A DNA stretch of 41,585 nt from Vicingaceae bacterium. GTDB lineage: Bacteria > Bacteroidota > Bacteroidia > Flavobacteriales_E > Vicingaceae. A model generated the notes under the pieces. The model worked only from the letters and a program-made list of their open reading frames with translations, did no database searches and had not been told where the DNA came from. The position numbers and the translations under genes were made by a program. The DNA lies in the NCBI GenBank assembly GCA_026003395.1, contig BPHE01000017.1, forward strand, positions 1-41,585, given 5' to 3'. Of the stretch, positions 2,649-18,813 are shown piece by piece (position 1 is the stretch's first letter; every line of letters begins with the position of its first letter).

Positions 2649-5024
2649 TCATTTGAGATATTTAAGTATTTCTTTAGAAAAAAGCATCCTTTCTCCATTA
2701 ATATAAATTGTGACGAAAGCATCGTGATATGGCAATTTTTTGGCCATATCCCTTTTGACCAATGCCTCTCTGAATGTTTTGACCGGTGTTTGCAGTTCAA
2801 AACGCGTTATTTTATCGTCCAATTCTTTTTCTCTAACTTGATCCAACGATTCGTAAATCGATTTGTTAAAATTTTTAGGTCTTCTATATGCTCCAACTTG
2901 AATTCTGAATTCTAAACCGGCCATTTGAGCATCACCAAAATATTCCAACATTTTATCCAATAAATCGGGAGTCCATTTCAAGGCGTTTTTTCTTAAATTT
3001 TTATCGTTGTATGGCACAAATGCATCTTCCGGAAAAGTTTTGTATTTTGAAGGGAATCCTTTTGCATAAGGCGAATCAGCCAAGTAATTTCCGGAAGTGA
3101 TTTGAAATTTACCGTTATTGTCTGATTTCTGACCATTAATAACAATCCCTCCTACCGGTTTGCCATATAAATCTTTGGTTTTGCCAATTACATCGACCAT
3201 GGAAGGATAATCGACCAATATATCATATTCTTTATCTTTTGGCACTTTTTTAAATTGAAAATAACCGTTTTGATCGGTATAAACCTCCCTTTCAACACTT
3301 CCATCTTTTGAACGCAAAACAACTTTTACACCCGCAAGCGGTTCTCCTGTTACGGGATCTTTGACATACCCGTCAATATTGATATACTTGTCCAATATTT
3401 CTTGCGGATAAAGATATACATCCAACACACTGTCTTTGAATGATGTCAAGTTTTGAATAGGTATCAATGCTTCAAAAGGAACACATCCTTCAGCTTCATA
3501 TTTTACCAAATAATTAAACCCTAATGGGAAAACTACAAGATATTTGCCTGAACTTGAGTTGGAATGATGCAATGAAGGGTCTGATGCTGTCCCTGAAATA
3601 GAAACTGTTATGTCCGAATATCCGGGAATATCGTTGACAAACACTTTACCTTTTAGAACAAATGCTGCTGATGAAGCAAAATGTCCGGGTGTAACAAGGT
3701 AAATATCTTGCAAACCTTTTCCTCCTTTACGCATGGATGAAAAATATCCATGATTTCCTTGTGCGTTGATTACGTAAAATTTATCGTCAAAAGGCGTATT
3801 GATACTTAACCCGACATTTACCGGTGTTGTCCAGGTGGAATCATCTTTCAGCTGGGCATAAAAAATATCATAGCCACCGACCGAATTCGGACCATTGGAA
3901 CTAAAATAAAGCGTTGTTCCATCATAAAAGAAAAAGGGAGCATCTTCATCGTAAGGAGTGTTGATTGTAGGTCCTAAATTAACCGGTTTCGACCATTGAC
4001 CATTGGGTAACAACACAGATTTGTATATATCACGTCCACCAAAACCACCGGGTCTCTCTGAACTAAAAAACAAAACTTTTTCATTATAAGCAAGACAGGC
4101 ACTTCCCTCCCAAAATTCTGTATTGACAAATCCCGGTAAAGATTTTGGCGATGACCATTTTTCTCCATCCAATTTTGATATGTATATATTGCCTGATGAA
4201 TCAGCCGTGTTTCTGTAAAACAACAAAGTTTGACCATCGGCACTTAAACTTATGGCTGCATCATTTTGCACAGTATTTAATTCTTGTATCGGCATCGCGG
4301 GCGACCAGTTTTCGCCGGTTTTGAACGATTGAAAAATATCTTCACCATAAAATATTCCCTCCGGATCGGGTTCTCCTGCATCATTTAGTTTGCCTCCCGT
4401 CGATTTAGGACCTCTGTATGTAAAGATCAATAAATTTTCATCTGCCGAAATTACAGGCATGTATTCATTGTAAGGAGTATTTATATTTTCCGGCAACAAG
4501 GTCATTATTGTCACCTCATTTTTGTTCAATTGTGAGAGACGTTCTTTTAATTCTACACCTTTCTGACATTGTTGCATTAAAAGGGAAATCTTTAATGCTT
4601 CGGGACTACCCGGCTCAAAACTTTTTAATGCTATTGAATATAATTCGGCTGCTTTTTCAAAGTTTTGTGCGGCATGATTGGCTCGCGCCAAATAAAAATT
4701 AAAATCTTCAGGTGTTTTAAATTTGTTGTTGTTTCTTAATTCTGTCAATATCTCAAGTGACTTTTCCGGTTGATCGGTTTTATATAAATAACATATTGCC
4801 AGTTTGTAATATGCCTTTAGATCATCTTTTTTTCTTTGATGATATGCTTCATAAAATGGCAGAGCCTCAAGAAAATTCCCCTTTTCGTAATTTTTTTCGG
4901 CTAAGTTTAATAATGCTTTATCCGGTAAAGATTCTAATGATTTATCTTGAGCAATGACTGAAATGTACGAAAAAAACAAAAATATAAAGAAACTCTTGCA
5001 CCAGAACTCTCCTCTTTTTTTCAT
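2649..5024 (-). CDS. Secreted TPR / PD40 beta-propeller / carboxypeptidase-regulatory-like protein, T9SS-associated
   Basis: 791-residue envelope protein. A Sec signal peptide ends near residue 26 (VIAQ). Residues about 30-165 look like TPR helices (YEKGNFLEALPFYEAYHQ). Residues about 185-445 hold repeated WD40-like PD40 strands (ISADENLLIFTYRG, LSADGQTLLFYRN, FFSSERPGGFGGRDIY, LYFSSNGPNSVGGYDIFY). Residues about 545-620 form a carboxypeptidase-regulatory-like fold (VKDPVTGEPLAGVKVVLRS). The last about 80 residues begin FRIQVGAYRRPKNF, resembling a SPOR domain. The order resembles PorE-like T9SS accessory proteins, but I do not see the OmpA-like peptidoglycan-binding end usual there; the SPOR-like tail may replace it. 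It lies downstream of a PorP/SprF gene, the usual Bacteroidota arrangement, 49 bases away. Confidence 0.82.
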   Translation of the reverse strand: MKKRGEFWCKSFFIFLFFSYISVIAQDKSLESLPDKALLNLAEKNYEKGNFLEALPFYEAYHQRKKDDLKAYYKLAICYLYKTDQPEKSLEILTELRNNNKFKTPEDFNFYLARANHAAQNFEKAAELYSIALKSFEPGSPEALKISLLMQQCQKGVELKERLSQLNKNEVTIMTLLPENINTPYNEYMPVISADENLLIFTYRGPKSTGGKLNDAGEPDPEGIFYGEDIFQSFKTGENWSPAMPIQELNTVQNDAAISLSADGQTLLFYRNTADSSGNIYISKLDGEKWSSPKSLPGFVNTEFWEGSACLAYNEKVLFFSSERPGGFGGRDIYKSVLLPNGQWSKPVNLGPTINTPYDEDAPFFFYDGTTLYFSSNGPNSVGGYDIFYAQLKDDSTWTTPVNVGLSINTPFDDKFYVINAQGNHGYFSSMRKGGKGLQDIYLVTPGHFASSAAFVLKGKVFVNDIPGYSDITVSISGTASDPSLHHSNSSSGKYLVVFPLGFNYLVKYEAEGCVPFEALIPIQNLTSFKDSVLDVYLYPQEILDKYINIDGYVKDPVTGEPLAGVKVVLRSKDGSVEREVYTDQNGYFQFKKVPKDKEYDILVDYPSMVDVIGKTKDLYGKPVGGIVINGQKSDNNGKFQITSGNYLADSPYAKGFPSKYKTFPEDAFVPYNDKNLRKNALKWTPDLLDKMLEYFGDAQMAGLEFRIQVGAYRRPKNFNKSIYESLDQVREKELDDKITRFELQTPVKTFREALVKRDMAKKLPYHDAFVTIYINGERMLFSKEILKYLK

Positions 5025-5073: not shown

Positions 5074-5968
5074 TTAATATAATGTTTGAGGAACAGATCT
5101 GCCACCGGGCTTGAAGGTATATGATATAAACAACTCCCCTGTCCTGCCCAACTCACTCCGTGCAGCATTGAATATCGCAAAATCATACGAAAATCCCGCC
5201 TTCAATCGTTTCGACTCGTGTATCCCTATCCCCGCCGATAAACTATAATTCTGCTTATACATCAATTGTATCCATCCCCACTTCTCCGCATCCACCACCA
5301 AACTACCATCCAACTGCAACGGACTAGACAAATTAAAACCTCCATAGGTCGTTATATACCTAATCATCACCGCCGGTCGCAACCACAACCCTATATCCTC
5401 CACTATCTTGTATGAATACTGTATGTTCGCCGTCATGTGCTTGTTGACCCGGTAGGCCGCCTGTTGCTGTGTCTCCAAATATCTTATCTCACTGCCAAAT
5501 ATCTGCCATACCGCCAAACCCACATCCAATCCCTTCCAATGCCAATTGATCCCTCCTGCCCCATCAAACGCCGCTTTGTTGATCCGGTTGCCCATCAACT
5601 GAGGATCCCCTCCGTCCTTCACTTTTACCCGTTCAAACTCAAAACTCCTCTGAAATCCCCCCAACATCACCCCGGCACTCAAATACATCTCCTCCGATAA
5701 CTTTACCGCATATGAATAATTACCATATCCCCCCACTTGATCCCATAATCCTATCCGGTCATGGGTAAACAACAAGCCCGCTCCGCTCTTCTTATTCTTT
5801 AACATCCCACTCAATGACATCAATTGACTGTTCGGTCCGCCGGATATGTCGCTCCACTGCGAACGGTGCATCGCAAACAATTCCGCCTCCTCATTCAAAT
5901 AACTCTGCGCCGGATTCATCAACATCCGGTTCCATACATATTGATTAAACATCGGCATCTGCTGGGAA
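5074..5968 (-). repeat. PorP homogenised block, copy 1
   Basis: Nearly identical to 9620-10514 and 14152-15046. Identity starts just after the signal peptide (at the CAGCAGATGCC segment encoding QQMP) and runs to the stop. Upstream of it copy 1 is unrelated to the other two. Confidence 0.9.
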
Positions 5969-6039
5969 AAGATTGCATGCATTATCAATGTTCCCAAGCA
6001 GAAAGTAATAATTTTTATGTTTAAAAATACTTTGCTCAT
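5074..6039 (-). CDS. PorP/SprF family type IX secretion outer-membrane protein, copy 1
   Basis: 321-residue predicted outer-membrane beta-barrel of the PorP/SprF family. After a signal peptide ending IFSQ it has the family start QQMPMFNQYVWNRMLMNPA and the sequence HRSQWSDISGGPNSQ. In Flavobacterium johnsoniae, SprF is needed for secretion of the adjacent T9SS substrate SprB, so this protein is probably the export or surface partner of the large protein encoded 11 bases upstream. From the QQMPMF motif to the stop it is nearly identical to the two other copies in the window; only the signal peptide (MSKVFLNIKIITF) is unrelated. Base composition is much richer in G+C than the flanks: 33 of 60 bases in 5821-5880 against 17 of 60 in 21181-21240. 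Confidence 0.93.
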   Translation of the reverse strand: MSKVFLNIKIITFCLGTLIMHAIFSQQMPMFNQYVWNRMLMNPAQSYLNEEAELFAMHRSQWSDISGGPNSQLMSLSGMLKNKKSGAGLLFTHDRIGLWDQVGGYGNYSYAVKLSEEMYLSAGVMLGGFQRSFEFERVKVKDGGDPQLMGNRINKAAFDGAGGINWHWKGLDVGLAVWQIFGSEIRYLETQQQAAYRVNKHMTANIQYSYKIVEDIGLWLRPAVMIRYITTYGGFNLSSPLQLDGSLVVDAEKWGWIQLMYKQNYSLSAGIGIHESKRLKAGFSYDFAIFNAARSELGRTGELFISYTFKPGGRSVPQTLY

Positions 6040-6050
6040 ATTTTCATATT

Positions 6051-9000
6051 TTAATTTCCAACAATGTTAATATGCCCTTTGAACACGACACCCTCTCCTT
6101 CTTTAATCTTCAACACAAAGAAATACGTCCCGTTTGGCAAACGCTCCCCTTTGTAACGGCCATCCCATTCGTTCATATATCCCTCCTTGCTGTATATCAA
6201 CTGACCATAACGATTGAATATCTGTACCTCATTGGCCGGATAATTCTCTATGTTGCCTATCCACCATGTGTCGTTGTACCCATCTCCGTTCGGCGTCAAT
6301 GTGTTGGATATCTCCAACTTGTAATCCCGTATCACATACACCGTCAATTGCGATGTGTCTGCACATCCATACTCATCCCATACAACCACCGTATATTGCT
6401 GCGTCTCTACCGGCCATACCTCAGGATTCGATATCGTCGTGTCATTGATGTTCACATTTGGCCGCCACAAATAACTCATTCCCCCGCCGGCATACACCTG
6501 TACCCTGTCGCCCAAACTGATCGTGGTGTCTCCACTCGTATACGCTCCGTTGAATTTCCTTACCCATACCGTCGCATATGCCGAAGTGTCCGCAGGACAT
6601 ACACCGTTCTTCACTATCACACGGTATAATGTGGTATCCGTCAAATTCGTAAAACTCTCCACTACCCCGCTTGTGTTCGTATTCTGCCAGCTCTGTCCTC
6701 CGTCTGTGCTCACCTGCCAGGTCACTATCGTGCCGTTATATCCACTCGCCAACAATATCCCGCTGTTGCCCTCTATACATACCACCGTGTCTCGCAATAC
6801 CACACCTCCCTCACTCAATGCATCTACCTTTATCATCACCGTGTCACTATATACAGCCGGACATGCCCCGCTCTTCACCAATACCCGGTATATCCTGTCC
6901 TGCGTCAGGTTATTGTATGGCTGCTGAACGCCTGTGTTCGATATGGCAAACCAGTTGATGCCCCCATCGGTTGAATATTCCCATTGTACCGGAGTACCCG
7001 TATTCCCCGTCAATTGCAACATTCCACTGTTCTGCCCGCTGCACACCGTATCGTCCTGCAACAATTGCCCTCCAACACTCAACGGAGAAACCTCTACGGT
7101 TATCGTGGAACTGTCGGCACAACCATAGTCAGATACCGCTTTTAGTTCAACCGTATATGTCCCCGGTGACAAATAGGTATGCCAGGGCTGAAACTGACCA
7201 GAATAATTTCCGTCTCCAAAGTCCCATACCCATTGAGATATCACTCCGGTACCGCCTACCCAACTGTTGTTCGTGAATAACATGCTGTCCCCGATACAAA
7301 CAGGACTCTGGGCACTGAAGGTAATGTTGGGTAATGGTTCAACATACATGGTTTTAATAATTGAATCTTTACAACCAAACTGATTGATGACCACTTGCTT
7401 AATATTCTTACTTCCCCCATAAGTATAATTGATATTGGAAGGATTTTCCTGAGTAGAAGTTTGAGGAATCGCGCCATTGCCAAAATTCCATTGAAAACTG
7501 ATGCCCGCTCCGGTACTTCCTGTGTTGGTAAATGATACAGGCAGATTACTTTCACAAACATTCAATGGGCCAGTAAAACCGGCCGTAGGAACAGGATTTA
7601 CGACTAAAGTAGCGGAAGCAGATTGAATATTATTACCACATATGGCTTTTAATTGTATGTTGTATGTGCCGGGAGGGAATGAAGCCACCACCGTGTCCTG
7701 TACAGTGCTAAAAACATTTCCATTAGCCACCCATTCAAAACAAGAAGCTGTTCCGGGAGGAGTGGTATTGATGAGGGTTACGATCTCATTTGCACATATA
7801 ATAGTATCGCTCATTATAAAAGAAGGGGTGACCGGTGTACAAGAAATACATATAAAATTCTCATTTGGCGTTGGAGCTCCCGTTGTAACCACAGGTGAGG
7901 AAATAGTAATATTGCTGATAAAGTTTTGTGTAGCAGTTGCAGGCAAAGGTGTAGTAGTAATCAAGCTTGTAACATTCATCCCCCCCCAAACTGAGGAAAT
8001 ATTGTTACAACCACAATCACCCAAACTGTCTGTTCTTACAAACATAGGGTCATAATCCCCCGAACCGGGACTGGTTTCTCTGTTCATCGATAGCACATAA
8101 CCACTATTTCCACCATTTACGGGAATAATATCCACACCCCTGTCGGTTCCGCTTGTGCCATATGCCCTAACCCATTGAAAATTTCCAAGAGTATCTATCT
8201 TCAATATAAAAGCATCCCTGCCACCATTCGTATTTGTATATGTATATCCCGTTATGGCATATCCGTCAGCCGCCACGGCTATACCTTCTGCCACCTCTTC
8301 ATTAGACCCTCCGTATGTTTTTGCCCATTGAACGACCCCATTGGCATCCAATTTCACCAGTAAAATATCCCATGATCCTTGTGACCATGGACCATAGTCA
8401 GTGGCACCTGCCAAAATATACCCTCCATCCGGAGTGGGTATCCCTTCTGTATCCCAATATCTTCCTTCATTTCCCGGTCCTCCATAAGCGTTCATCCATA
8501 CAGGAGTGCCGGAAGCATTGACTTTCACCGCCATCAGGTCACTCCCCCCGGCACCAAAACTACTGGTTTTTCCTCCGGCTATATATCCGCCTGATACAGC
8601 ATGCACACTTCCAAAAGCATCTTCAGAACCTCCACCAAACGCCCTTGCCCATACAGGCGTTCCTAAATTGTTGTAAAACATTACTACGGCATTCCAATTT
8701 CCCCAGGGTGATGCATAAGTATTACCGGCCGTAATGTAACCGCCTGCGGCTTCTTCCAACCAAATTCCATAATCACCGGAATTTCCGCTTCCATTCCAAA
8801 CCGTATTCCATTGAAGGGCTCCTGCAGAATTCAACTTCATCAATAAGTAATCATATCCTCCCCCGCTTCCCGAACCATCATCCCATAAACCAATGACAGC
8901 ATACCCTCCGTCTGATGTTTGAATCACTTTTTTTCCCCCGTCTGAAGCAGGACTGCCAAATGTTTTATACCACTCCAACGAACCGCAACCGGTAACCTTG

Positions 9001-9164
9001 TATACATACACATCACAACTACCTGCAGGACCTCCCTCATGTTGCCCGGTGCCAACAAATCCTCCGTCTGAGGTAGACGATAATCCCAACCCCCCATTCA
9101 TGCCGGGAAAGTTATACGTTCGCATATAAGTGGAATTTTGACCAACCAATCCGGTCAAAACCAT
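6051..9164 (-). CDS. Large T9SS surface protein with type B sorting domain, cassette 1 (N-terminus apparently frameshifted)
   Basis: 1037 residues from the first in-frame ATG. Residues about 25-400 are repeats of the type TSDGGYIxAGxT...DxxLxKLDxxGxxxWxKxYGG, a probable beta-propeller. PKD/Ig-like modules follow (about 440-900, for example WVWDFGDGNYSG). The gliding-motility-associated type B CTD (about 945-1037) starts at NTLTPNGDGYNDTWW. It should be secreted by T9SS and anchored with the PorP partner encoded next. The chosen ATG gives no signal peptide, yet the same frame reads back through LFYPLSFFFFQMVLTGLVGQ, a convincing one. The only upstream ATG (9208, MKK) is out of frame by one base at an A5 run (9198-9202 on the plus strand as T5). 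So the protein may be phase-off, frameshifted, or affected by an assembly error. Confidence 0.85.
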   Translation of the reverse strand: MVLTGLVGQNSTYMRTYNFPGMNGGLGLSSTSDGGFVGTGQHEGGPAGSCDVYVYKVTGCGSLEWYKTFGSPASDGGKKVIQTSDGGYAVIGLWDDGSGSGGGYDYLLMKLNSAGALQWNTVWNGSGNSGDYGIWLEEAAGGYITAGNTYASPWGNWNAVVMFYNNLGTPVWARAFGGGSEDAFGSVHAVSGGYIAGGKTSSFGAGGSDLMAVKVNASGTPVWMNAYGGPGNEGRYWDTEGIPTPDGGYILAGATDYGPWSQGSWDILLVKLDANGVVQWAKTYGGSNEEVAEGIAVAADGYAITGYTYTNTNGGRDAFILKIDTLGNFQWVRAYGTSGTDRGVDIIPVNGGNSGYVLSMNRETSPGSGDYDPMFVRTDSLGDCGCNNISSVWGGMNVTSLITTTPLPATATQNFISNITISSPVVTTGAPTPNENFICISCTPVTPSFIMSDTIICANEIVTLINTTPPGTASCFEWVANGNVFSTVQDTVVASFPPGTYNIQLKAICGNNIQSASATLVVNPVPTAGFTGPLNVCESNLPVSFTNTGSTGAGISFQWNFGNGAIPQTSTQENPSNINYTYGGSKNIKQVVINQFGCKDSIIKTMYVEPLPNITFSAQSPVCIGDSMLFTNNSWVGGTGVISQWVWDFGDGNYSGQFQPWHTYLSPGTYTVELKAVSDYGCADSSTITVEVSPLSVGGQLLQDDTVCSGQNSGMLQLTGNTGTPVQWEYSTDGGINWFAISNTGVQQPYNNLTQDRIYRVLVKSGACPAVYSDTVMIKVDALSEGGVVLRDTVVCIEGNSGILLASGYNGTIVTWQVSTDGGQSWQNTNTSGVVESFTNLTDTTLYRVIVKNGVCPADTSAYATVWVRKFNGAYTSGDTTISLGDRVQVYAGGGMSYLWRPNVNINDTTISNPEVWPVETQQYTVVVWDEYGCADTSQLTVYVIRDYKLEISNTLTPNGDGYNDTWWIGNIENYPANEVQIFNRYGQLIYSKEGYMNEWDGRYKGERLPNGTYFFVLKIKEGEGVVFKGHINIVGN
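7980..7987 (-). repeat. G8 homopolymer inside surface-protein gene, copy 1
   Basis: Eight consecutive G on the coding strand (TGG GGG GGG ATG, Trp-Gly-Gly-Met near residue 393). This is unusual in an AT-rich genome. A one-base slip would truncate the protein before its PKD modules and sorting domain. Confidence 0.9.
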
Positions 9165-9220
9165 TTGAAAAAAGAAAAATGAAAGTGGATAGAATAGTTT
9201 TTCTTCATAGTTTAAGTTTT

Positions 9221-9565
9221 TTAATTTTCTCTTAAGGTTAACGATACAAAATGGGTCATAGGATAGTGCACTCGTTGCATATCTTCTTCTATTGCTTTGA
9301 TTTTTTCTTGAGGATCTCCTTCTGAAAATTGCAAATAAAATACCTTATCACTTTCATCAAATTTTATAACCTTTCCACCCAATCGATTTGCCAATCCTTC
9401 CAAATATGCAGCTCCAAAAACAGGACAATCTTCTATGCCATTTTTAACTTTAAAAGCAAGTTGATATTCTGTTGAAAGTGTTTGTTGATTGTTTGATTGC
9501 GCATTTACATGTAATGATAAAAATAGCATTACAACAAAAACGTAAATAAAGTTTTTAGGTCTCAT
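9221..9565 (-). CDS. Small secreted protein of unknown function, cassette 1 leader gene
   Basis: About 114 residues from the ATG at 9565 (MRPKNFIY). A longer reading would need a TTG at 9583, which lies inside the promoter-like box, so I prefer 9565. A clear signal peptide ends HVNAQ. The mature part of about 90 residues is soluble: one Cys (DCPVFGAAYLEG), a middle GGKVIKFDESDKVFYLQF, then a helix EKIKAIEEDMQRV and a final strand. The beta-alpha-beta pattern is loosely ferredoxin-like; that fold is only a guess. It is the first gene of its cassette, followed by the large surface protein, and has a near-identical twin at 13753-14097. It may be a periplasmic or surface partner of the secreted protein. 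Confidence 0.78.
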   Translation of the reverse strand: MRPKNFIYVFVVMLFLSLHVNAQSNNQQTLSTEYQLAFKVKNGIEDCPVFGAAYLEGLANRLGGKVIKFDESDKVFYLQFSEGDPQEKIKAIEEDMQRVHYPMTHFVSLTLREN

Positions 9566-9580
9566 AGTATATTGTTTATG

Positions 9581-9588
9581 CAAATATA
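9581..9588 (-). promoter_or_regulatory. -7-like box before cassette 1
   Basis: Minus-strand TATATTTG, a full match to TAnnTTTG, 16 bases before the preferred start of the small secreted protein. No convincing -33 element at the expected spacing. The same box precedes the twin gene at 14113-14120. Confidence 0.42.
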
Positions 9589-9619
9589 ATAATCTTTCAA
9601 AAATAATTTGGTTTTCATT

Positions 9620-10514
9620 TTAATATAATGTTTGAGGAACAGATCTGCCACCGGGCTTGAAGGTATAAGATATGAACAACTCCCCTGTCCTGCCCAACTC
9701 ACTCCGTGCAGCATTGAATATCGCAAAATCATACGAAAATCCCGCCTTCAATCGTTTCGACTCGTGTATCCCTATCCCCGCCGATAAACTATAATTCTGC
9801 TTATACATCAATTGTATCCATCCCCACTTCTCCGCATCCACCACCAAACTCCCATCCAACTGCAACGGACTAGACAAATTAAAACCTCCATAGGTCGTTA
9901 TATACCTAATCATCACCGCCGGTCGCAACCACAACCCTATATCCTCCACTATCTTGTATGAATACTGTATGTTCGCCGTCATGTGCTTGTTGACCCGGTA
10001 GGCCGCCTGTTGCTGTGTCTCCAAATATCTTATCTCACTGCCAAATATCTGCCATACCGCCAAACCCACATCCAATCCCTTCCAATGCCAATTGATCCCT
10101 CCTGCCCCATCAAACGCCGCTTTGTTGATCCGGTTGCCCATCAACTGTGGATCGCCTCCGTCCTTCACTTTTACCCGTTCAAACTCAAAACTCCTCTGAA
10201 ATCCCCCCAACATCACCCCGGCACTCAAATACATCTCCTCCGATAACTTTACCGCATATGAATAATTACCATATCCACCCACTTGATCCCATAATCCTAT
10301 CCGGTCATGGGTAAACAACAAGCCCGCTCCGCTCTTCTTATTCTTTAACATCCCACTCAATGACATCATTTGACTGTTCGGTCCGCCGGATATGTCGCTC
10401 CACTGCGAACGGTGCATCGCAAACAATTCCGCCTCCTCATTCAAATAACTCTGCGCCGGATTCATCAACATCCGGTTCCATACATATTGATTAAACATCG
10501 GCATCTGCTGGGAA
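9620..10514 (-). repeat. PorP homogenised block, copy 2
   Basis: Encodes a protein identical to that of 14152-15046; here identity with copy 3 continues in both directions beyond the block. Confidence 0.9.
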
Positions 10515-10576
10515 TGTAAATCCGTCATTAAGAACATAAGCAGTATAATCCATATTGTTTTTTTCATCATAAACAT
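9620..10576 (-). CDS. PorP/SprF family type IX secretion outer-membrane protein, copy 2
   Basis: Start taken at the ATG at 10576 (MFMMKKTIW), one base after the stop of the upstream surface-protein gene (TAA-T-ATG), suggesting translational coupling. The ATGs at 10570 and 10567 are alternatives; a longer reading from a TTG inside the preceding gene is unlikely. The signal peptide ends DLHSQ and is followed by the family motif QQMPMFNQYVWNR. The protein is identical to copy 3 and differs from copy 1 by almost nothing after QQMPMF. Predicted role: partner for outer-membrane secretion or surface retention of the adjacent type B CTD protein, by analogy with SprF/SprB. Confidence 0.93.
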   Translation of the reverse strand: MFMMKKTIWIILLMFLMTDLHSQQMPMFNQYVWNRMLMNPAQSYLNEEAELFAMHRSQWSDISGGPNSQMMSLSGMLKNKKSGAGLLFTHDRIGLWDQVGGYGNYSYAVKLSEEMYLSAGVMLGGFQRSFEFERVKVKDGGDPQLMGNRINKAAFDGAGGINWHWKGLDVGLAVWQIFGSEIRYLETQQQAAYRVNKHMTANIQYSYKIVEDIGLWLRPAVMIRYITTYGGFNLSSPLQLDGSLVVDAEKWGWIQLMYKQNYSLSAGIGIHESKRLKAGFSYDFAIFNAARSELGRTGELFISYTFKPGGRSVPQTLY

Positions 10577-10577
10577 A

Positions 10578-13500
10578 TTATTTACCGATAATGTTAATAT
10601 GCCCTTTGAACACAACACCTTCTCCTTCTTTAATCTTCAACACAAAGAAATACGTCCCGTTTGGCAAACGCTCCCCTTTGTAACGGCCATCCCATTCGTT
10701 CATATATCCCTCCTTGCTGTATATCAACTGACCATAACGATTGAATATCTGTACCTCATTGGCCGGATAATTCTCTATGTTGCCTATCCACCATGTGTCG
10801 TTGTACCCATCTCCGTTCGGCGTCAATGTGTTGGATATCTCCAACTTGTAATCCCGTATCACATACACCGTCAATTGCGATGTGTCTGCACATCCATACT
10901 CATCCCATACAACCACCGTATATTGCTGCGTCTCTACCGGCCATACCTCAGGATTCGATATCGTCGTGTCATTGATGTTCACATTTGGCCGCCACAAATA
11001 ACTCATTCCCCCGCCGGCATACACCTGTACCCTGTCGCCCAAACTGATCGTGGTGTCTCCACTCGTATACGCTCCGTTGAATTTCCTTACCCATACCGTC
11101 GCATATGCCGAAGTGTCCGCAGGACATACACCGTTCTTCACTATCACACGGTATAATGTGGTATCCGTCAAATTTGTAAAACTCTCCACTACCCCGCTTG
11201 TGTTCGTATTCTGCCAGCTCTGTCCTCCGTCTGTGCTCACCTGCCATGTCACTATCGTACCGTTATATCCACTCGCCAGCAACATCCCGCTGTTGCCCTC
11301 TATACATACCACCGTGTCACGCAATACTACACCTCCCTCACTCAATGCATCTACCTTTATCATCACCGTGTCACTATATACAGCCGGACATGCCCCGCTC
11401 TTCACCAATACCCGGTATATCCTGTCCTGCGTCAGGTTATTGTATGGCTGCTGAACGCCTGTGTTCGATATGGCAAACCAGTTGATGCCCCCATCGGTTG
11501 AATATTCCCATTGTACCGGAGTACCCGTATTCCCCGTCAATTGCAACATTCCACTGTTCTGTCCGCTGCACACCGTATCGTCCTGCAACAATTGCCCTCC
11601 AACACTCAACGGAGAAACCTCTACGGTTATCGTGGAACTGTCGGCACAACCATAGTCAGATACCGCTTTTAGTTCAACCGTATATGTCCCCGGTGACAAA
11701 TAGGTATGCCAGGGCTGAAACTGACCAGAATAATTTCCGTCTCCAAAGTCCCATACCCATTGAGATATCACTCCGGTACCGCCTACCCAACTGTTGTTCG
11801 TGAATAACATGCTGTCCCCGATACAAACAGGACTCTGGGCACTGAAGGTAATGTTGGGTAATGGTTCAACATACATGGTTTTAATAATTGAATCTTTACA
11901 ACCAAACTGATTGATGACCACTTGCTTAATATTCTTACTTCCCCCATAAGTATAATTGATATTGGAAGGATTTTCCTGAGTAGAAGTTTGAGGAATCGCG
12001 CCATTGCCAAAATTCCATTGAAAACTGATGCCCGCTCCGGTACTTCCTGTGTTGGTAAATGATACAGGCAGATTACTTTCACAAACATTCAATGGGCCAG
12101 TAAAACCGGCCGTAGGAACAGGATTTACGACTAAAGTAGCGGAAGCAGATTGAATATTATTACCACATATAGCTTTTAATTGTATGTTATATGTGCCGGG
12201 AGGGAATGAAGCCACCACCGTGTCCTGTACAGTGCTAAAAACATTTCCATTAGCCACCCATTCAAAACAAGAAGCTGTTCCGGGAGGAGTGGTATTGATG
12301 AGGGTTACGATCTCATTTGCACATATAATAGTATCGCTCATTATAAAAGAAGGGGTGACCGGTGTACAAGAAATACATATAAAATTCTCATTTGGCGTTG
12401 GAGCTCCCGTTGTAACCACAGGTGAGGAAATAGTAATATTGCTGATAAAGTTTTGTGTAGCAGTTGCAGGCAAAGGTGTAGTAGTAATCAAGCTTGTAAC
12501 ATTCATCCCCCCCCAAACTGAGGAAATATTGTTACAACCACAATCACCCAAACTGTCTGTTCTTACAAACATAGGGTCATAATCCCCCGAACCGGGACTG
12601 GTTTCTCTGTTCATCGATAGCACATAACCACTATTTCCACCATTTACGGGAATAATATCCACACCCCTGTCGGTTCCGCTTGTGCCATATGCCCTAACCC
12701 ATTGAAAATTTCCAAGAGTATCTATCTTCAATATAAAAGCATCCCTGCCACCATTCGTATTTGTATATGTATATCCCGTTATGGCATATCCGTCAGCCGC
12801 CACGGCTATACCTTCTGCCACCTCTTCATTAGACCCTCCGTATGTTTTTGCCCATTGAACGACCCCATTGGCATCCAATTTCACCAGTAAAATATCCCAT
12901 GATCCTTGTGACCATGGACCATAGTCAGTGGCACCTGCCAAAATATACCCTCCATCCGGAGTGGGTATCCCTTCTGTATCCCAATATCTTCCTTCATTTC
13001 CCGGTCCACCATAAGCGTTCATCCATACAGGAGTACCGGAAGCATTGACTTTCACCGCCATCAGGTCACTCCCCCCGGCACCAAAACTACTGGTTTTTCC
13101 TCCGGCTATATATCCACCTGACACAGCATGCACACTTCCAAAAGCATCTTCAGCTCCTCCACCAAACGCCCTTGCCCATACAGGCGTTCCTAAATTGTTG
13201 TAAAACATTACTACGGCATTCCAACCTCCCCAGGGTGATGCATAAGTATTACCGGCCGTAATGTAACCGCCTGCTGCTTCTTCCAGCCAAATTCCATATT
13301 CACTGGAATTTCCGCTTCCATTCCAAACCGTATTCCATTGAAGGGCTCCTGCAGAATTCAATTTCATCAATAAGTATTCATATCCACCCCCGCTTCCCGA
13401 ACCATTATCCCATAAACCAATGACAGCATACCCTCCGTCTGATGTTTGAATCACTTTTTTTCCCCCGTCTGAAGCAGGACTGCCAAATGTTTTATACCAC

Positions 13501-13691
13501 TCCAACGAACCGCAACCGGTAACCTTGTATACATACACATCACAACTACCTGCAGGACCTCCCTCATGTTGCCCGGTGCCAACAAATCCTCCGTCTGAGG
13601 TAGACGATAATCCCAACCCCCCATTCATGCCGGGAAAGTTATACGTTCGCATATAAGTGGAATTTTGACCAACCAATCCGGTCAAAACCAT
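10578..13691 (-). CDS. Large T9SS surface protein with type B sorting domain, cassette 2 (N-terminus apparently frameshifted)
   Basis: 1037 residues, differing from the cassette 1 protein at only nine positions by my comparison. Six of these lie in residues 96-180 of the propeller (D96N, D105E, G130S, D131E, N156G, S180A). The domain order is the same: propeller repeats, PKD/Ig-like modules, type B CTD (NTLTPNGDGYNDTWW). The same N-terminal problem occurs: an in-frame hydrophobic leader LIYPLSFFFFQMVLTGLVGQ precedes the first in-frame ATG. The natural ATG (13735) is one base out of frame at an A5 run (T5 at 13725-13729), and read from that ATG it stops after four codons. The stop is one base from the PorP copy 2 start. 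Confidence 0.85.
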   Translation of the reverse strand: MVLTGLVGQNSTYMRTYNFPGMNGGLGLSSTSDGGFVGTGQHEGGPAGSCDVYVYKVTGCGSLEWYKTFGSPASDGGKKVIQTSDGGYAVIGLWDNGSGSGGGYEYLLMKLNSAGALQWNTVWNGSGNSSEYGIWLEEAAGGYITAGNTYASPWGGWNAVVMFYNNLGTPVWARAFGGGAEDAFGSVHAVSGGYIAGGKTSSFGAGGSDLMAVKVNASGTPVWMNAYGGPGNEGRYWDTEGIPTPDGGYILAGATDYGPWSQGSWDILLVKLDANGVVQWAKTYGGSNEEVAEGIAVAADGYAITGYTYTNTNGGRDAFILKIDTLGNFQWVRAYGTSGTDRGVDIIPVNGGNSGYVLSMNRETSPGSGDYDPMFVRTDSLGDCGCNNISSVWGGMNVTSLITTTPLPATATQNFISNITISSPVVTTGAPTPNENFICISCTPVTPSFIMSDTIICANEIVTLINTTPPGTASCFEWVANGNVFSTVQDTVVASFPPGTYNIQLKAICGNNIQSASATLVVNPVPTAGFTGPLNVCESNLPVSFTNTGSTGAGISFQWNFGNGAIPQTSTQENPSNINYTYGGSKNIKQVVINQFGCKDSIIKTMYVEPLPNITFSAQSPVCIGDSMLFTNNSWVGGTGVISQWVWDFGDGNYSGQFQPWHTYLSPGTYTVELKAVSDYGCADSSTITVEVSPLSVGGQLLQDDTVCSGQNSGMLQLTGNTGTPVQWEYSTDGGINWFAISNTGVQQPYNNLTQDRIYRVLVKSGACPAVYSDTVMIKVDALSEGGVVLRDTVVCIEGNSGMLLASGYNGTIVTWQVSTDGGQSWQNTNTSGVVESFTNLTDTTLYRVIVKNGVCPADTSAYATVWVRKFNGAYTSGDTTISLGDRVQVYAGGGMSYLWRPNVNINDTTISNPEVWPVETQQYTVVVWDEYGCADTSQLTVYVIRDYKLEISNTLTPNGDGYNDTWWIGNIENYPANEVQIFNRYGQLIYSKEGYMNEWDGRYKGERLPNGTYFFVLKIKEGEGVVFKGHINIIGK
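12507..12514 (-). repeat. G8 homopolymer inside surface-protein gene, copy 2
   Basis: Same G8 run (Trp-Gly-Gly-Met) as at 7980-7987, kept at identical length in the second copy. Confidence 0.9.
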
Positions 13692-13752
13692 TTGAAAAAA
13701 GAAAAATGAAAGTGGATAGATTAGTTTTTCTTCATAGCTTATCTAAGTTTTA

Positions 13753-14097
13753 TTAATTTTCTCTTAACGTTAACGATACAAAATGGGTCATAGGATAGTG
13801 CACTCGTTGCATATCTTCTTCTATTGCTTTGATTTTTTCTTGAGGATCTCCTTCTGAAAATTGCAAATAAAATACCTTTTCACTTTCATCAAATTTTATA
13901 ACCTTTCCCCCCAATCGATTTGCCAATCCTTCCAAATATGCAGCTCCAAAAACAGGACAATCTTCTATGCCATTTTTAACTTTAAAAGCAAGTTGATATT
14001 CTGTTGAAAGTGTTTGTTGATTGTTTGATTGCGCATTTACATGTAATGATAAAAATAGCATTACAACAAAAACGTAAATAAAGTTTTTAGGTCTCAT
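13753..14097 (-). CDS. Small secreted protein of unknown function, cassette 2 leader gene
   Basis: Twin of the protein at 9221-9565, differing by one Asp-to-Glu change in the mature part (DESEKVF instead of DESDKVF). It has the same signal peptide ending HVNAQ and the same preferred ATG (MRPKNF) downstream of a TATATTTG box. It lies between PorP copy 3 and the cassette 2 surface protein and would be the first gene of that cassette. I do not recognise a family. Confidence 0.78.
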   Translation of the reverse strand: MRPKNFIYVFVVMLFLSLHVNAQSNNQQTLSTEYQLAFKVKNGIEDCPVFGAAYLEGLANRLGGKVIKFDESEKVFYLQFSEGDPQEKIKAIEEDMQRVHYPMTHFVSLTLREN

Positions 14098-14112
14098 AGT
14101 ATATTGTTTATG

Positions 14113-14120
14113 CAAATATA
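14113..14120 (-). promoter_or_regulatory. -7-like box before cassette 2
   Basis: Minus-strand TATATTTG, 16 bases before the preferred start of the small secreted protein; identical context to 9581-9588. No clear -33 element. Confidence 0.42.
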
Positions 14121-14151
14121 ATAATCTTTCAAAAATAATTTGGTTTTCATT

Positions 14152-15046
14152 TTAATATAATGTTTGAGGAACAGATCTGCCACCGGGCTTGAAGGTATAA
14201 GATATGAACAACTCCCCTGTCCTGCCCAACTCACTCCGTGCAGCATTGAATATCGCAAAATCATACGAAAATCCCGCCTTCAATCGTTTCGACTCGTGTA
14301 TCCCTATCCCCGCCGATAAACTATAATTCTGCTTATACATCAATTGTATCCATCCCCACTTCTCCGCATCCACCACCAAACTCCCATCCAACTGCAACGG
14401 ACTAGACAAATTAAAACCTCCATAGGTCGTTATATACCTAATCATCACCGCCGGTCGCAACCACAACCCTATATCCTCCACTATCTTGTATGAATACTGT
14501 ATGTTCGCCGTCATGTGCTTGTTGACCCGGTAGGCCGCCTGTTGCTGTGTCTCCAAATATCTTATCTCACTGCCAAATATCTGCCATACCGCCAAACCCA
14601 CATCCAATCCCTTCCAATGCCAATTGATCCCTCCTGCCCCATCAAACGCCGCTTTGTTGATCCGGTTGCCCATCAACTGTGGATCGCCTCCGTCCTTCAC
14701 TTTTACCCGTTCAAACTCAAAACTCCTCTGAAATCCCCCCAACATCACCCCGGCACTCAAATACATCTCCTCCGATAACTTTACCGCATATGAATAATTA
14801 CCATATCCACCCACTTGATCCCATAATCCTATCCGGTCATGGGTAAACAACAAGCCCGCTCCGCTCTTCTTATTCTTTAACATCCCACTCAATGACATCA
14901 TTTGACTGTTCGGTCCGCCGGATATGTCGCTCCACTGCGAACGGTGCATCGCAAACAATTCCGCCTCCTCATTCAAATAACTCTGCGCCGGATTCATCAA
15001 CATCCGGTTCCATACATATTGATTAAACATCGGCATCTGCTGGGAA
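14152..15046 (-). repeat. PorP homogenised block, copy 3
   Basis: Third copy; offset of 4532 bases from copy 2 throughout the PorP and small-protein genes. Confidence 0.9.
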
Positions 15047-15108
15047 TGTAAATCCGTCATTAAGAACATAAGCAGTATAATCCATATTGTTTTTTTCATC
15101 ATAAACAT
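14152..15108 (-). CDS. PorP/SprF family type IX secretion outer-membrane protein, copy 3
   Basis: Protein identical to copy 2, including signal peptide (ending DLHSQ) and the barrel start QQMPMFNQYVWNR. The start ATG at 15108 is one base beyond the TAA of the 1082-residue surface-protein gene, again implying coupled translation. It therefore serves a large protein whose N-terminal two thirds is unlike those in cassettes 1 and 2. This suggests the PorP protein recognises the shared C-terminal part. Confidence 0.93.
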   Translation of the reverse strand: MFMMKKTIWIILLMFLMTDLHSQQMPMFNQYVWNRMLMNPAQSYLNEEAELFAMHRSQWSDISGGPNSQMMSLSGMLKNKKSGAGLLFTHDRIGLWDQVGGYGNYSYAVKLSEEMYLSAGVMLGGFQRSFEFERVKVKDGGDPQLMGNRINKAAFDGAGGINWHWKGLDVGLAVWQIFGSEIRYLETQQQAAYRVNKHMTANIQYSYKIVEDIGLWLRPAVMIRYITTYGGFNLSSPLQLDGSLVVDAEKWGWIQLMYKQNYSLSAGIGIHESKRLKAGFSYDFAIFNAARSELGRTGELFISYTFKPGGRSVPQTLY

Positions 15109-15109
15109 A

Positions 15110-16190
15110 TTATTTACCGATAATGTTAATATGCCCTTTGAACACAACACCTTCTCCTTCTTTAATCTTCAACACAAAGAAATACGTCCCGTTTGGCAAA
15201 CGCTCCCCTTTGTAACGGCCATCCCATTCGTTCATATATCCCTCCTTGCTGTATATCAACTGACCATAACGATTGAATATCTGTACCTCATTGGCCGGAT
15301 AATTCTCTATGTTGCCTATCCACCATGTGTCGTTGTACCCATCTCCGTTCGGCGTCAATGTGTTGGATATCTCCAACTTGTAATCCCGTATCACATACAC
15401 CGTCAATTGCGATGTGTCTGCACATCCATACTCATCCCATACAACCACCGTATATTGCTGCGTCTCTACCGGCCATACCTCAGGATTCGATATCGTCGTG
15501 TCATTGATGTTCACATTTGGCCGCCACAAATAACTCATTCCCCCGCCGGCATACACCTGTACCCTGTCGCCCAAACTGATCGTGGTGTCTCCACTCGTAT
15601 ACGCTCCGTTGAATTTCCTTACCCATACCGTCGCATATGCCGAAGTGTCCGCAGGACATACACCGTTCTTCACTATCACACGGTATAATGTGGTATCCGT
15701 CAAATTCGTAAAACTCTCCACTACCCCGCTTGTGTTCGTATTCTGCCAGCTCTGTCCTCCGTCTGTGCTCACCTGCCAGGTCACTATCGTGCCGTTATAT
15801 CCACTCGCCAACAATATCCCGCTGTTGCCTTCTATACATACTAATGTGTCTCGCAAAACCACACCTCCCTCACTCAAAGCATCTACCTTTATCATCACCG
15901 TGTCACTATATACAGCCGGACATGCCCCGCTCTTCACCAATACCCGGTATATCCTGTCCTGGGTCAGGTTATTGTATGGCTGCTGAACGCCTGTGTTCGA
16001 TATGGCAAACCAGTTGATGCCTCCGTCAGTCGAATATTCCCATTGTACCGGAGTACCCGTATTCCCCGTCAATTGCAACATTCCACTGTTCTGTCCGCTG
16101 CACACCGTATCGTCCTGCAACAATTGCCCTCCAACACTCAACGGAGAAACCTCTACGGTTATCGTGGAACTGTCGGCACAACCATAGTCA
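15110..16190 (-). repeat. Shared C-terminal block in the cassette 3 gene
   Basis: About 1.08 kb nearly identical to 6051-7131 and 10578-11658 (last Ig-like modules and type B sorting domain). Similarity falls to clearly lower levels between about 16190 and 16395 and then to distant homology. Confidence 0.88.
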
Positions 16191-18358
16191 GACATAGCTT
16201 TTAATTGAACTGTATATGTCCCCGGTGACAAATAGGTATGCCAGGGTTGGAACTGTCCCGAATAGTTGCCGTCTCCAAAGTCCCATACCCATTGGGATAT
16301 CACTCCGGTGCCTCCTACCCAACTGTTGTTCGTGAAAAACATGCTGTCCCCGATACAAACAGGACTCTGGGCACTGAAGGTAATGTTGGGTTGGGGCTCA
16401 ATAAATACTGTTTTAGAGACAGAATCTTTGCATCCGTATGAATTGGTTACTACCAAACTTACAATCTTTCCACCTGAAGTTGCATAAATGATATTTAAAG
16501 CATCTTGTGTAGTTAGAGTGGGTGGTGTTGCACCGGCTCCCAAATACCATTGATATGAATATCCTGCACCGGTACTCCCTGTATTGATGTATGAGACCGG
16601 CATATTATTGATACATATATTTGACGGCGCATTAAAATCTGCGTTGACAATGCCTCCGGGTAAGATATTAACCGTTGCATTATCCGAAGCAGAGCATCCA
16701 TTTGGGTCTGTATAAGTAACGGTGTATGTAGATGGAGTAGTTGGAGCCACTGTAATCGATTGTGTAGTTTGTCCATTGGACCATAGAAAACTTCCTCCGG
16801 GCGGATTGACATTTGCAGTTAAAGTAACAGGTTGGCCGGCGCATGTTACAGTGTCGTTGACCTGTACTGTAGGATTAGGATAAACGACTATGGTTCCGGA
16901 TGCCGTATTTGAACATCCTGTGGATAATGTATATGTCACATTAAATGTTGTAGTAGAAGTAACCGTCACATTGATGGTTTGTGTGGTGTATCCGCCGGGG
17001 GACCAGGAATAAGTTCCACCGGAAGGACTTACCACTGCTGTCAACGTTCCATTCTGTCCCAGACATACCGTATCATTTGCCACACTCACAGAAGGAACCG
17101 GATTAACTGTCACATTTGTACTGGCCGAATTGGTACATCCATTAGACCCCGTAACTGTCACGGTATATGTGCCGCTTGCTGCAGTAGTGGCATTCGGTAT
17201 CGACGGATTTTGAACATTTGAAGAAAAACTGTTGGGTCCGGTCCATGAATATGAAGTAAATCCACCTGCAGAAAAAAGATTTAACGTTTGACCGGCACAT
17301 ATAGGAGAGTTGGAAGATGGATTTGGATTAGGCAAGGGATTTACCACCACATTGGTAGTGGTAGAAGCCGAGCAACCAAATCCGTTTGTCACTGTCAATG
17401 TATACGTACCGCTTGCAGCAGTAGTGGCATTGGGTATCGACGGATTTTGCAAATTTGACGAAAAGCCATTAGGGCCTGTCCAGGAATATGAACTCATTCC
17501 ATTGGGTCCTCCGGTTAGATTTAACGTTTGACCGGCACAAATGGGCGAGTTTGAAGAGGCTGTAGGAGAAGGCAATGGATTCACCGTTACACATACCATA
17601 TTGGAATATACTGTTTGATTGCATGATGTAATTCTTGACCTGAAACATGCATTTGATGTAAGCGGCCCGTAGGTATAGGTAGGCGTAGTGGCACCGGGGA
17701 TATTGGACCAGGTTACTCCTCCATCGGTAGATATCTGCCATTGTTGAAATGTTCCGACATAACCGGACGCTGTCAAGGTCACACTTTGACCGGAGCAAAT
17801 AGTATTTGGAGATACGCTTGCCGTTCCGGGATTTGGATTTGCAGGACCATAGCATATGGTCAACACCACCCTGTCCACACATACTTCTCCATTAGGCGTT
17901 CCCACCAATGTATTTACCCCTCCATAATTATAACCCGGAAACCCATTGCAACCATAATTTGTGGAGGAAGTAGGATGTACATTGCACTCCCCACAATTAC
18001 AGGTATACCCTCCAAGTACGGCAGAACCAACAGAGGTTCCGTTAATGGTTGTTGGCATACTGGTACCGCCACAATCACTTACATAATATGTGACAGTGAT
18101 TTGATAAACAACATTCCCAGCAGGAACCGGATCAACAAAAGTTCTGTTAAGCGTCATTGCCTGACAACATCCGCACCCACCTCCAAAACACCAATAATCA
18201 TCTCCACATACATTACAACAACCCAATGATTGCGCTCCATCAATATCAATGGTTAAAGTGATATTTGTACAAGATTGAGCAGAAATTTTAGTATTGTTGA
18301 ATAAGACAACAAAACCAAAAAATAGCATCAAGCGGATAAGATATTCTATTTTCTTCAT
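15110..18358 (-). CDS. Large T9SS surface protein with Cys-rich N-terminus, Ig/PKD repeats and type B sorting domain, cassette 3
   Basis: 1082 residues with an intact signal peptide ending ISAQ (residue 28), so its start is unambiguous. Residues 30-170 contain 15 Cys, several paired (CC, CGCC, CNC), probably disulfide-rich after export. Residues about 170-560 are Ig/PKD-like modules, including two adjacent copies of an about 80-residue unit (residues about 258-420, key segments NSPICAGQTLNL and NPSIPNATTAASGTYT). From about residue 655 (PNITFSAQSPVCIGDSM) to the end it matches the cassette 1 and 2 proteins. The match becomes near-identical at the DNA level over about 15110-16190. The type B CTD (NTLTPNGDGYND) is intact. 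One base separates it from PorP copy 3; 15 bases separate it from its small leader gene. Confidence 0.92.
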   Translation of the reverse strand: MKKIEYLIRLMLFFGFVVLFNNTKISAQSCTNITLTIDIDGAQSLGCCNVCGDDYWCFGGGCGCCQAMTLNRTFVDPVPAGNVVYQITVTYYVSDCGGTSMPTTINGTSVGSAVLGGYTCNCGECNVHPTSSTNYGCNGFPGYNYGGVNTLVGTPNGEVCVDRVVLTICYGPANPNPGTASVSPNTICSGQSVTLTASGYVGTFQQWQISTDGGVTWSNIPGATTPTYTYGPLTSNACFRSRITSCNQTVYSNMVCVTVNPLPSPTASSNSPICAGQTLNLTGGPNGMSSYSWTGPNGFSSNLQNPSIPNATTAASGTYTLTVTNGFGCSASTTTNVVVNPLPNPNPSSNSPICAGQTLNLFSAGGFTSYSWTGPNSFSSNVQNPSIPNATTAASGTYTVTVTGSNGCTNSASTNVTVNPVPSVSVANDTVCLGQNGTLTAVVSPSGGTYSWSPGGYTTQTINVTVTSTTTFNVTYTLSTGCSNTASGTIVVYPNPTVQVNDTVTCAGQPVTLTANVNPPGGSFLWSNGQTTQSITVAPTTPSTYTVTYTDPNGCSASDNATVNILPGGIVNADFNAPSNICINNMPVSYINTGSTGAGYSYQWYLGAGATPPTLTTQDALNIIYATSGGKIVSLVVTNSYGCKDSVSKTVFIEPQPNITFSAQSPVCIGDSMFFTNNSWVGGTGVISQWVWDFGDGNYSGQFQPWHTYLSPGTYTVQLKAMSDYGCADSSTITVEVSPLSVGGQLLQDDTVCSGQNSGMLQLTGNTGTPVQWEYSTDGGINWFAISNTGVQQPYNNLTQDRIYRVLVKSGACPAVYSDTVMIKVDALSEGGVVLRDTLVCIEGNSGILLASGYNGTIVTWQVSTDGGQSWQNTNTSGVVESFTNLTDTTLYRVIVKNGVCPADTSAYATVWVRKFNGAYTSGDTTISLGDRVQVYAGGGMSYLWRPNVNINDTTISNPEVWPVETQQYTVVVWDEYGCADTSQLTVYVIRDYKLEISNTLTPNGDGYNDTWWIGNIENYPANEVQIFNRYGQLIYSKEGYMNEWDGRYKGERLPNGTYFFVLKIKEGEGVVFKGHINIIGK
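17099..17587 (-). repeat. Two tandem about 80-residue Ig-like repeats within the cassette 3 surface protein
   Basis: Two successive units share NSPICAGQTLNL, SYSWTGPN, NPSIPNATTAASGTYT and a closing VNP. The DNA is also similar, so this looks like internal duplication. The edges are approximate. Confidence 0.75.
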
Positions 18359-18373
18359 ATGCTTATTTTAATT

Positions 18374-18778
18374 TTATTTTACGTCAAAATAATTCATGGC
18401 GTATCTGTAAAAGCTTTCGGCCGAAATTCCCCATGCCTGTAAATTAATTTTTAAAGCATTGTTTGTTTGGCAATCACCCGTCAATGTTTGTCCCGCGCCA
18501 ATAGTCAAAGTTTTTGTTTTCGTAGTGTTTATCCATTGTTTTGATTGCGTAAAAATGGCAGGTTGCCACGATACCGTCACATCCACATTATTTTTATTGA
18601 CCAATTTCAAAATGATCACATCCTCTCCATCACATTGAGATAAGGCAAAATATGCTTCTACACCGTCTTTCTCATGATGTCCTGAAACAGTTAAAAAAAC
18701 TCCTTGCCAATTTAAGTTGTTTTGGCTAAATGTATACGTTGTTATTAAAAATAACCCTATCAATATATTTTTCTTCAT
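18374..18778 (-). CDS. Small secreted protein of unknown function, cassette 3 leader gene
   Basis: About 134 residues from the ATG at 18778 (MKKNILIGLF), chosen because it gives a signal peptide ending TYTFSQ; an upstream TTG overlaps the promoter-like box. The mature part is beta-rich (LNWQGVFLTVSGHHEKDGVEAYFALSQ is read here as strands) with two Cys. I find no similarity by eye to the 114-residue leaders of cassettes 1 and 2. It is 15 bases upstream of the 1082-residue surface protein, so position rather than sequence is conserved between the cassettes. Function unknown. Confidence 0.78.
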   Translation of the reverse strand: MKKNILIGLFLITTYTFSQNNLNWQGVFLTVSGHHEKDGVEAYFALSQCDGEDVIILKLVNKNNVDVTVSWQPAIFTQSKQWINTTKTKTLTIGAGQTLTGDCQTNNALKINLQAWGISAESFYRYAMNYFDVK

Positions 18779-18805
18779 GGTTCTCAAGTATTTTAAAGTT
18801 TTCAA

Positions 18806-18813
18806 CAAATATA
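18806..18813 (-). promoter_or_regulatory. -7-like box before cassette 3
   Basis: Minus-strand TATATTTG (TAnnTTTG), 28 bases before the ATG at 18778, at the head of the small protein-surface protein-PorP unit. No clear -33 element. Confidence 0.42.

Follow-up and report, generated by a model that had tools for sequence, protein, structure and literature searches.

How do neighbouring surface-protein genes come to share a nearly identical C-terminal part and secretion partner when their exposed N-terminal parts differ? The question is raised by contig C17 of a Bacteroidota-type genome (2.54 Mb, 33 contigs, 97.7% complete); the window analyzed here is that whole contig, 41,585 bp in length. It carries three head-to-tail cassettes on the minus strand, which are read toward lower coordinates (cassette 3, then 2, then 1), each with the order leader, large type B C-terminal domain (CTD) protein, PorP/SprF. 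An earlier note on this DNA had described the same three units, beginning with a small secreted protein, and matches to TIGR04131, TIGR03519, and PorP_SprF bore this out. The constant back, about 427 codons of the large gene, is common to the cassettes, as is PorP; together they are called the dock below. In the reading that we consider probable, a static PorE/PorP(SprF)/type B CTD operon was tandemly expanded by ordinary homologous recombination, and its dock was kept alike by conversion. The features of the array are listed here in the order of transcription.

18374..18808, minus strand: leader A (s3), a small secreted protein with two conserved cysteines; likely start at an ATG near 18778
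15110..18358, minus strand: large protein 3 (1082 aa), with an intact signal peptide, front A, Ig/PKD repeats, and the constant back with the type B CTD
17825..18358, minus strand: front A, the Cys-rich N-terminal domain of large protein 3, without a Pfam family
16403..16666, minus strand: first PKD domain of large protein 3, diverged, collinear with large protein 1 and 50% identical
15110..16392, minus strand: constant back, copy 3 (PKD, two Ig-like repeats, type B CTD); G+C content at third codon positions (GC3) 0.56
14152..15150, minus strand: PorP/SprF, copy 3; likely start at the ATG at 15108
13753..14115, minus strand: leader B, copy 2; weak relatives lie upstream of front B genes in genomes G039 and G043
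10578..13691, minus strand: large protein 2, an apparent hybrid of the copy 1 front and the copy 3 back; no in-frame signal peptide as assembled
10578..11860, minus strand: constant back, copy 2, from the three-way alignment
9620..10618, minus strand: PorP/SprF, copy 2; likely start at the ATG at 10576; protein identical to copy 3
9221..9583, minus strand: leader B, copy 1
6051..9164, minus strand: large protein 1, front B beta-propeller plus constant back; no in-frame signal peptide as assembled
6051..7333, minus strand: constant back, copy 1; GC3 0.56 versus 0.35 upstream, with the change point at codon 611, the identity edge
5074..6039, minus strand: PorP/SprF, copy 1; mature part ~99% identical to copies 2 and 3, signal peptide and 3' spacer unrelated
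2649..5024, minus strand: PorE-like gene (TPR, PD40 propeller, CarboxypepD_reg), single copy at the 3' end of the array

The adhesin operon and its predicted anchoring

The large proteins matched the type B CTD model TIGR04131 with 80-82 bits (cut-off 35), PorP1 matched TIGR03519 with 178.9 bits (cut-off 90.55), and PorP1-3 all matched the Pfam family PorP_SprF (PF11751) with 164-165 bits. A type IX secretion system (T9SS) translocon is present in the genome (SprA_N, 563 bits, open frame of 2399 aa). The product of the PorE-like gene, located 3' of cassette 1, scored 161 bits with the PorE model, below the cut-off of 600, and no OmpA domain, the peptidoglycan-binding domain expected of a PorE homolog, was recognized in it even at an E-value of 5.

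That SprF-type proteins are required by adjacent type B substrates, as the earlier note had stated, is established (PMC12618676, PMC9143113). Type B substrates need their cognate PorP/SprF in a strongly specific match, with crosstalk when CTDs are alike (PMC12618676). They are anchored via PorP/SprF, which PorE links to the wall (PMC9143113), and operons containing PorE are read as static (PMC12618676, PMC9143113). In mobile systems, a CXC tail links SprF to the gliding track (PMC12635249). No CXC motif was found in the C-terminal tails of PorP1-3, and no cysteine in their mature parts. Because the CXC tail is absent and a PorE-like gene is adjacent, the locus is predicted to be static and not a mobile SprB/SprF gliding adhesin. 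The large proteins would be secreted and anchored through their cognate PorP, and the locus probably yields a group of static surface adhesins whose docks are interchangeable.

Mosaic structure of the cassettes

Alignment of the window with itself (blastn) showed 98.2% identity across 6.8 kb at an offset of 4.5 kb; for cassette 1 against cassette 3 the value was 96.5% over 2.26 kb. Cassettes 1 and 2 were near-identical across the full unit (about 98-99%), beyond the back alone; the leader and front of cassette 3 matched theirs at the random level only, in agreement with the earlier note. A stretch of 555 bp was identical in all three cassettes, and the sharing of the constant block is far beyond chance. 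The claim that PorP and the C-terminal part of the large gene are nearly identical in all three copies holds for the back and for mature PorP (96.5-98.2%) but fails for the signal peptide and 3' spacer of PorP1: the former is wholly different, the latter diverges right after the stop codon, and only the mature part is homogenized. Further copies of the constant block, which the note had proposed to look for elsewhere in this genome, were not found there, the next best match being about 50%.

The edges of identity between cassette 3 and cassettes 1 and 2 were both sharp and graded. Aligned identity was about 60% up to approximately position 16402, then 90-92%, and then about 95-100%. The proportion of synonymous differences (pS) between large proteins 1 and 3 decreased accordingly from 0.22 (codons 611-700) to 0.115 (codons 701-839) and 0.029 (codons 840-1037). 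Large proteins 2 and 3 showed zero differences in codons 840-1037, PorP2 and PorP3 zero differences in 296 codons, giving identical proteins, so that cassettes 2 and 3 agreed over 494 codons; the PorP signal peptide and spacer of cassette 2 were also of the cassette 3 type, and its leader and front of the cassette 1 type. Informative sites in the back were arranged in runs, in which cassettes 1 and 2 first agreed against 3, then 1 and 3 against 2, and then 2 and 3 against 1. Eight switches between site types were observed versus 27.7 expected, and 0 of 100,000 shuffles gave a number as low. Just before the identity edge, large protein 3 has a first PKD domain whose best match was its counterpart in large protein 1 (50%, versus at most 37% for other domains). 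This old homology implies that the copies were long separate and that the back was homogenized later.

One could read these identities as recency, with one recent tandem duplication, one old domain fusion, and nothing repeatedly converted; the 98-99% likeness of cassettes 1 and 2 over the unit would fit, and a single tandem step of 4.5 kb would account for most of the alignment. It does not account for the ~99% likeness of the mature parts of PorP1 and PorP2 next to unrelated signal peptides and 3' spacers, for three different site patterns in blocks, for 494 unchanged codons between cassettes 2 and 3 when the fronts of cassettes 1 and 2 have a pS of 0.025, or for the GC3 jump at the edges, which recurs in unlinked gene groups (see below). 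This account is already disfavored, and we regard it as quite improbable. Homogenization of back and PorP looks recurrent.

Cassette 2 corresponds, as judged from sequence, to the hybrid expected from unequal recombination between cassettes 1 and 3 within their common back. An assembly graph looping through the shared back would produce exactly this layout of cassettes 3, 2, and 1, and the 555 bp identical in three copies, on a contig of a 33-contig assembly, are compatible with such an artifact. However, the leader and front of cassette 2 depart from those of cassette 1 at some 30 positions, a 5-bp indel among them, its upper back differs from that of cassette 3, and a second array with the same layout differs at 40 sites in 3.6 kb. 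A simple assembly loop was rejected on account of these numerous differences from both neighbors. The exact identity of backs 2 and 3 could still be a collapse; creation of the whole cassette by the assembler is highly improbable.

Taken stepwise, the reading preferred here starts from a static operon for a type IX-secreted surface adhesin that would have been expanded into a tandem array through ordinary homologous recombination. Each cassette would yield a leader, a large adhesin, and a PorP, with the C-terminal sorting domain of the adhesin handled by its own PorP. Two leader-plus-front units (A and B) may have ended up on one common dock of back and PorP, and cassette 2 may have arisen when cassette 1 recombined unequally with cassette 3 inside the shared back. 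Back and mature PorP would then be kept alike by repeated gene conversion, probably GC-biased, and fronts and leaders would diverge freely. The presumed benefit of homogenizing back and PorP together is that every CTD stays matched to every PorP and all pairs remain compatible.

Shared blocks elsewhere in the genome and their base composition

The same pattern recurred in other groups of CTD genes. A second array (locus L074, C2:140.5-151.4 kb) contains three CTD genes of the composition X-Y (t3), Z-Y (t2), and Z-W (t1). The fronts of t1 and t2 were 98-100% identical and their backs 50-66%; the backs of t2 and t3 were 94-100% identical and their fronts <50%, which is the same parent-hybrid-parent layout as in the window. 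Among unlinked genes, L076 gene 2 and L077 have a common back (97.8% over 2 kb) and different fronts, L076 gene 1 shares its back with L127 and L131 (96-97%), again with different fronts, and L078 shares its middle with the L074 array. In other genomes such sharing was scarce: the CTD genes of G003 (about 137 kb) contained no shared backs, and in those of G006 (about 199 kb) sharing was limited to one gene end in common between contig starts and to 0.35 kb in two adjacent genes. PorP alone can also be homogenized or copied. Two PorP genes on different contigs (L134, 2625-3662, and L136, 4292-5323) are 97.8% identical over the coding region only and have unrelated neighbors.

In every shared block GC3 stepped up, from 0.20-0.35 to 0.43-0.58, and the change point lay on or close to the edge of identity. 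In large protein 1, GC3 rose from 0.35 (front) to 0.56 (back), and mature PorP in the window reached 0.57-0.58, versus 0.29-0.41 in the other PorP genes of the genome. Comparable steps were found in C2g1 (0.205 to 0.51-0.54), C19g (0.32 to 0.54), t2 (0.25 to 0.56), t3 (0.32 to 0.56), C1g (0.33 to 0.56), C2g2 (0.23 to 0.43), and C5g (0.275 to 0.436), and in t1, whose back is unshared, GC3 was raised only in the shared middle. First and second codon positions hardly shifted in large protein 1 and t3. When change points were located from GC3 only, they fell at codons 611, 653, 889, 405, and 395, with the corresponding edges at 611, 656, 886, 401, and 402; the remaining ones were 18-43 codons off. 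The mean distance over eight genes was 15 codons, and 0 of 100,000 random sets came as close. The back-minus-front difference in G+C content at fourfold degenerate sites (GC4) ranged from +0.148 to +0.27 for the 10 genes with shared blocks and from -0.114 to +0.038 for the other 19 (Mann-Whitney p 7e-6, where the 10 sharing genes form only four groups). The CTD genes of G006 and G003 had no general step (0.017 +/- 0.064 and 0.006 +/- 0.024, respectively), and the largest composition outlier of G006 was L158, the gene whose end is shared.

The composition step is probably the result of repeated GC-biased gene conversion. The main alternative for the step is that the shared blocks were imported from a GC-richer relative and then copied, so that the raised GC3 is foreign composition. 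Sharp-edged GC3 would follow from import as well, and in other families both fronts, A and B, are attached to different backs. On the other hand, the back and PorP of the window are syntenic orthologs of single-copy G006 genes with a low GC4 of 0.16-0.22, the G006 ortholog shows no GC4 shift (0.17/0.16), and a separate import would be needed for each of four different block families, which would also have to be the very ones that are shared. We consider import unlikely. Biased gene conversion in bacteria has been argued for by Lassalle et al. (PMC4450053) whereas Ely states that no such case has been observed (PMC8153448). The present case resembles the former in that recombining segments are G+C-richer at synonymous sites and differs in that the compositional edge lies on the recombination edge inside single genes; raised synonymous GC with such edges provides an internal control for this dispute.

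Leader and front as a unit, and known systems

Separate searches of 60 genomes were made with leader A and with front A (residues 1-178 of large protein 3). Relatives of front A were present in 12 of them, and a leader A homolog was directly upstream in 11 of 13 front A loci outside this genome. The backs carrying front A elsewhere matched the window back at 21-31%, and the only one of these loci adjoining a PorP-like gene was G043:C21, which has no leader. According to the alignment, leader A belongs to a small secreted family with two invariant cysteines; its single-sequence structure model (predicted local distance difference test, pLDDT, 58) was too poor for a fold search. Front B was followed by a different back in G039 and by a back cut by the contig end in G043, with a small leader upstream in both cases; the relationship between these two leaders is clear (38%, 5e-18). 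G006 has single copies of front B, back, PorP, and PorE, arranged in the same order as in the window (48, 41 and 45% identity) and without a leader; across genera, front B is conserved about as well as the back (45% vs 50%). Leader plus front behaves as a swapped unit, and the exchange of fronts shown here is one over evolutionary time. Two proposals of the earlier note, a constant module of sorting domain and PorP with exchangeable fronts and a leader that belongs with its front, were thereby upheld. The locus suggests that the small leader partners the exposed domain rather than the secretion machinery. Small secreted genes also lie directly upstream of two other type B CTD genes of this genome (L076, 5119-5559; L123, 680-1063).

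Of the three large proteins, only large protein 3 has an intact signal peptide. Large genes 1 and 2 as assembled start with MVLTGLVGQ; upstream ATG frames (window positions 9155-9208 and 13685-13735) encode a signal-peptide-like start that is out of frame across a T-rich tract, and the frame of copy 2 also meets a stop at codon 5. An in-frame signal peptide was likewise missing from t1, t2, and C1g and present in t3; three of the four L074/L078 genes have none in frame. The earlier note had envisaged a scheme for surface variation, and a dedicated system in which inactive copies serve as donors for an intact one, as in pilS, vls, or tprK, would explain one intact copy beside defective ones in both arrays. 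The abundance of common backs in this genome, with hardly any in G006 and none in G003, would suit it too. However, no recombinase was found among the window genes and no inverted repeats of at least 60 bp in the window, two features that an invertible or shufflon-type system would have. Front B is as conserved between genera as the back, approximately, and its copies in cassettes 1 and 2, 99% alike, evolve under purifying selection (proportion of nonsynonymous differences, pN, 0.005; pS 0.025), with no hypervariable exposed region. The shared part is the back, when donor systems exchange the exposed part, and the broken starts may be errors or decay. Such a system is very unlikely. Ordinary homologous recombination between paralogs explains the data, so a dedicated variation scheme is not supported and membership in that class is not claimed; the interpretation offered in the note is thus partly supported.

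Several observations weigh against the recombining, converted operon proposed here. Seven sites at which only cassette 2 differs are clustered within 150 bp (6648-6801; in copy 2, 11175-11328) at the presumed hybrid junction and are unexplained. Copying from the neighboring Ig-like repeat was considered for them and rejected: only 4 of the 7 sites fit, and the other differences between the repeats were kept. The composition shift could instead mark imported GC-richer modules, as discussed above. The second composition outlier of G006, L140 (1996-6093), has a GC-raised back and no second copy in G006, so the prediction of a copy failed there. The lack of an in-frame signal peptide in large genes 1 and 2 may mean that these genes are inactive or in decay, or that they were misread. 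Leader B of the window was the best match of the G039 and G043 leaders among 310 open reading frames, with an E-value of only 0.018, which makes the link suggestive at the sequence level. With regard to exchange within a population, the evidence comes from one metagenome-type assembly, and the sets searched contained no further genome of the genus; a search of named close relatives returned a single weak match, Psychroflexus salis. A modular repertoire, in which leader-plus-front pairs are swapped in the living population onto constant docks, start-defective copies act as donors, and GC-biased conversion keeps the docks interchangeable, seems distinctly unlikely to us. If true, it would be surface variation in which the anchor is homogenized instead of the exposed part being copied.

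The closest known systems are the Flavobacterium johnsoniae operon of the Fjoh_3952/3951/3950 type (type B adhesin, SprF-like shuttle, PorE homolog; PMC12618676) and Porphyromonas gingivalis PG1035-PorP-PorE (PMC9143113). The locus shares with both the order type B CTD substrate, PorP/SprF, PorE-like protein, a PorP without the mobile CXC tail, and predicted static anchoring. Unlike them, it has three substrate/PorP cassettes with one common back and one PorE-like gene, two leader-plus-front units with small leader genes, and hybrid and homogenized copies; its PorE-like protein is below the PorE cut-off and has no recognized OmpA domain. The rearrangement of gingipains and hemagglutinins in P. 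gingivalis (PMC5266723) is similar in that T9SS surface proteins are diversified by module recombination with a conserved C-terminal domain. That case concerns gingipain-type proteins between strains, whereas here type B CTD proteins are involved within one genome, PorP lies inside the homogenized unit, and the leader gene travels with the front. With silent-cassette variation (vls, PMC11499132; tprK, PMC10063172; msp2, PMC11946796), the locus has in common gene conversion among paralogous surface genes, some of which look inactive, but conversion in the present case affects the back and leaves the exposed fronts distinct. In the open-licence literature, no papers describing homogenized type B CTD/PorP arrays were found. 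Given the strong adhesin-PorP specificity (PMC12618676), alike CTDs and PorPs would let new exposed parts use a working dock, a simple route to adding surface functions.

Upstream of cassette 3, a type B CTD protein with SBBP repeats (18923..21742, minus strand) is an unrelated neighbor outside the shared set. Elsewhere in the genome, a 4.7 kb tandem duplication with 99.8% identity at a contig start includes a type B CTD gene (L073, 1-9989), for which an assembly effect is possible, and L072 (1-16000), also at a contig start, holds a 3 kb gene for a secreted protein repeated head to tail about five times, with one copy intact and frameshifts in the rest.

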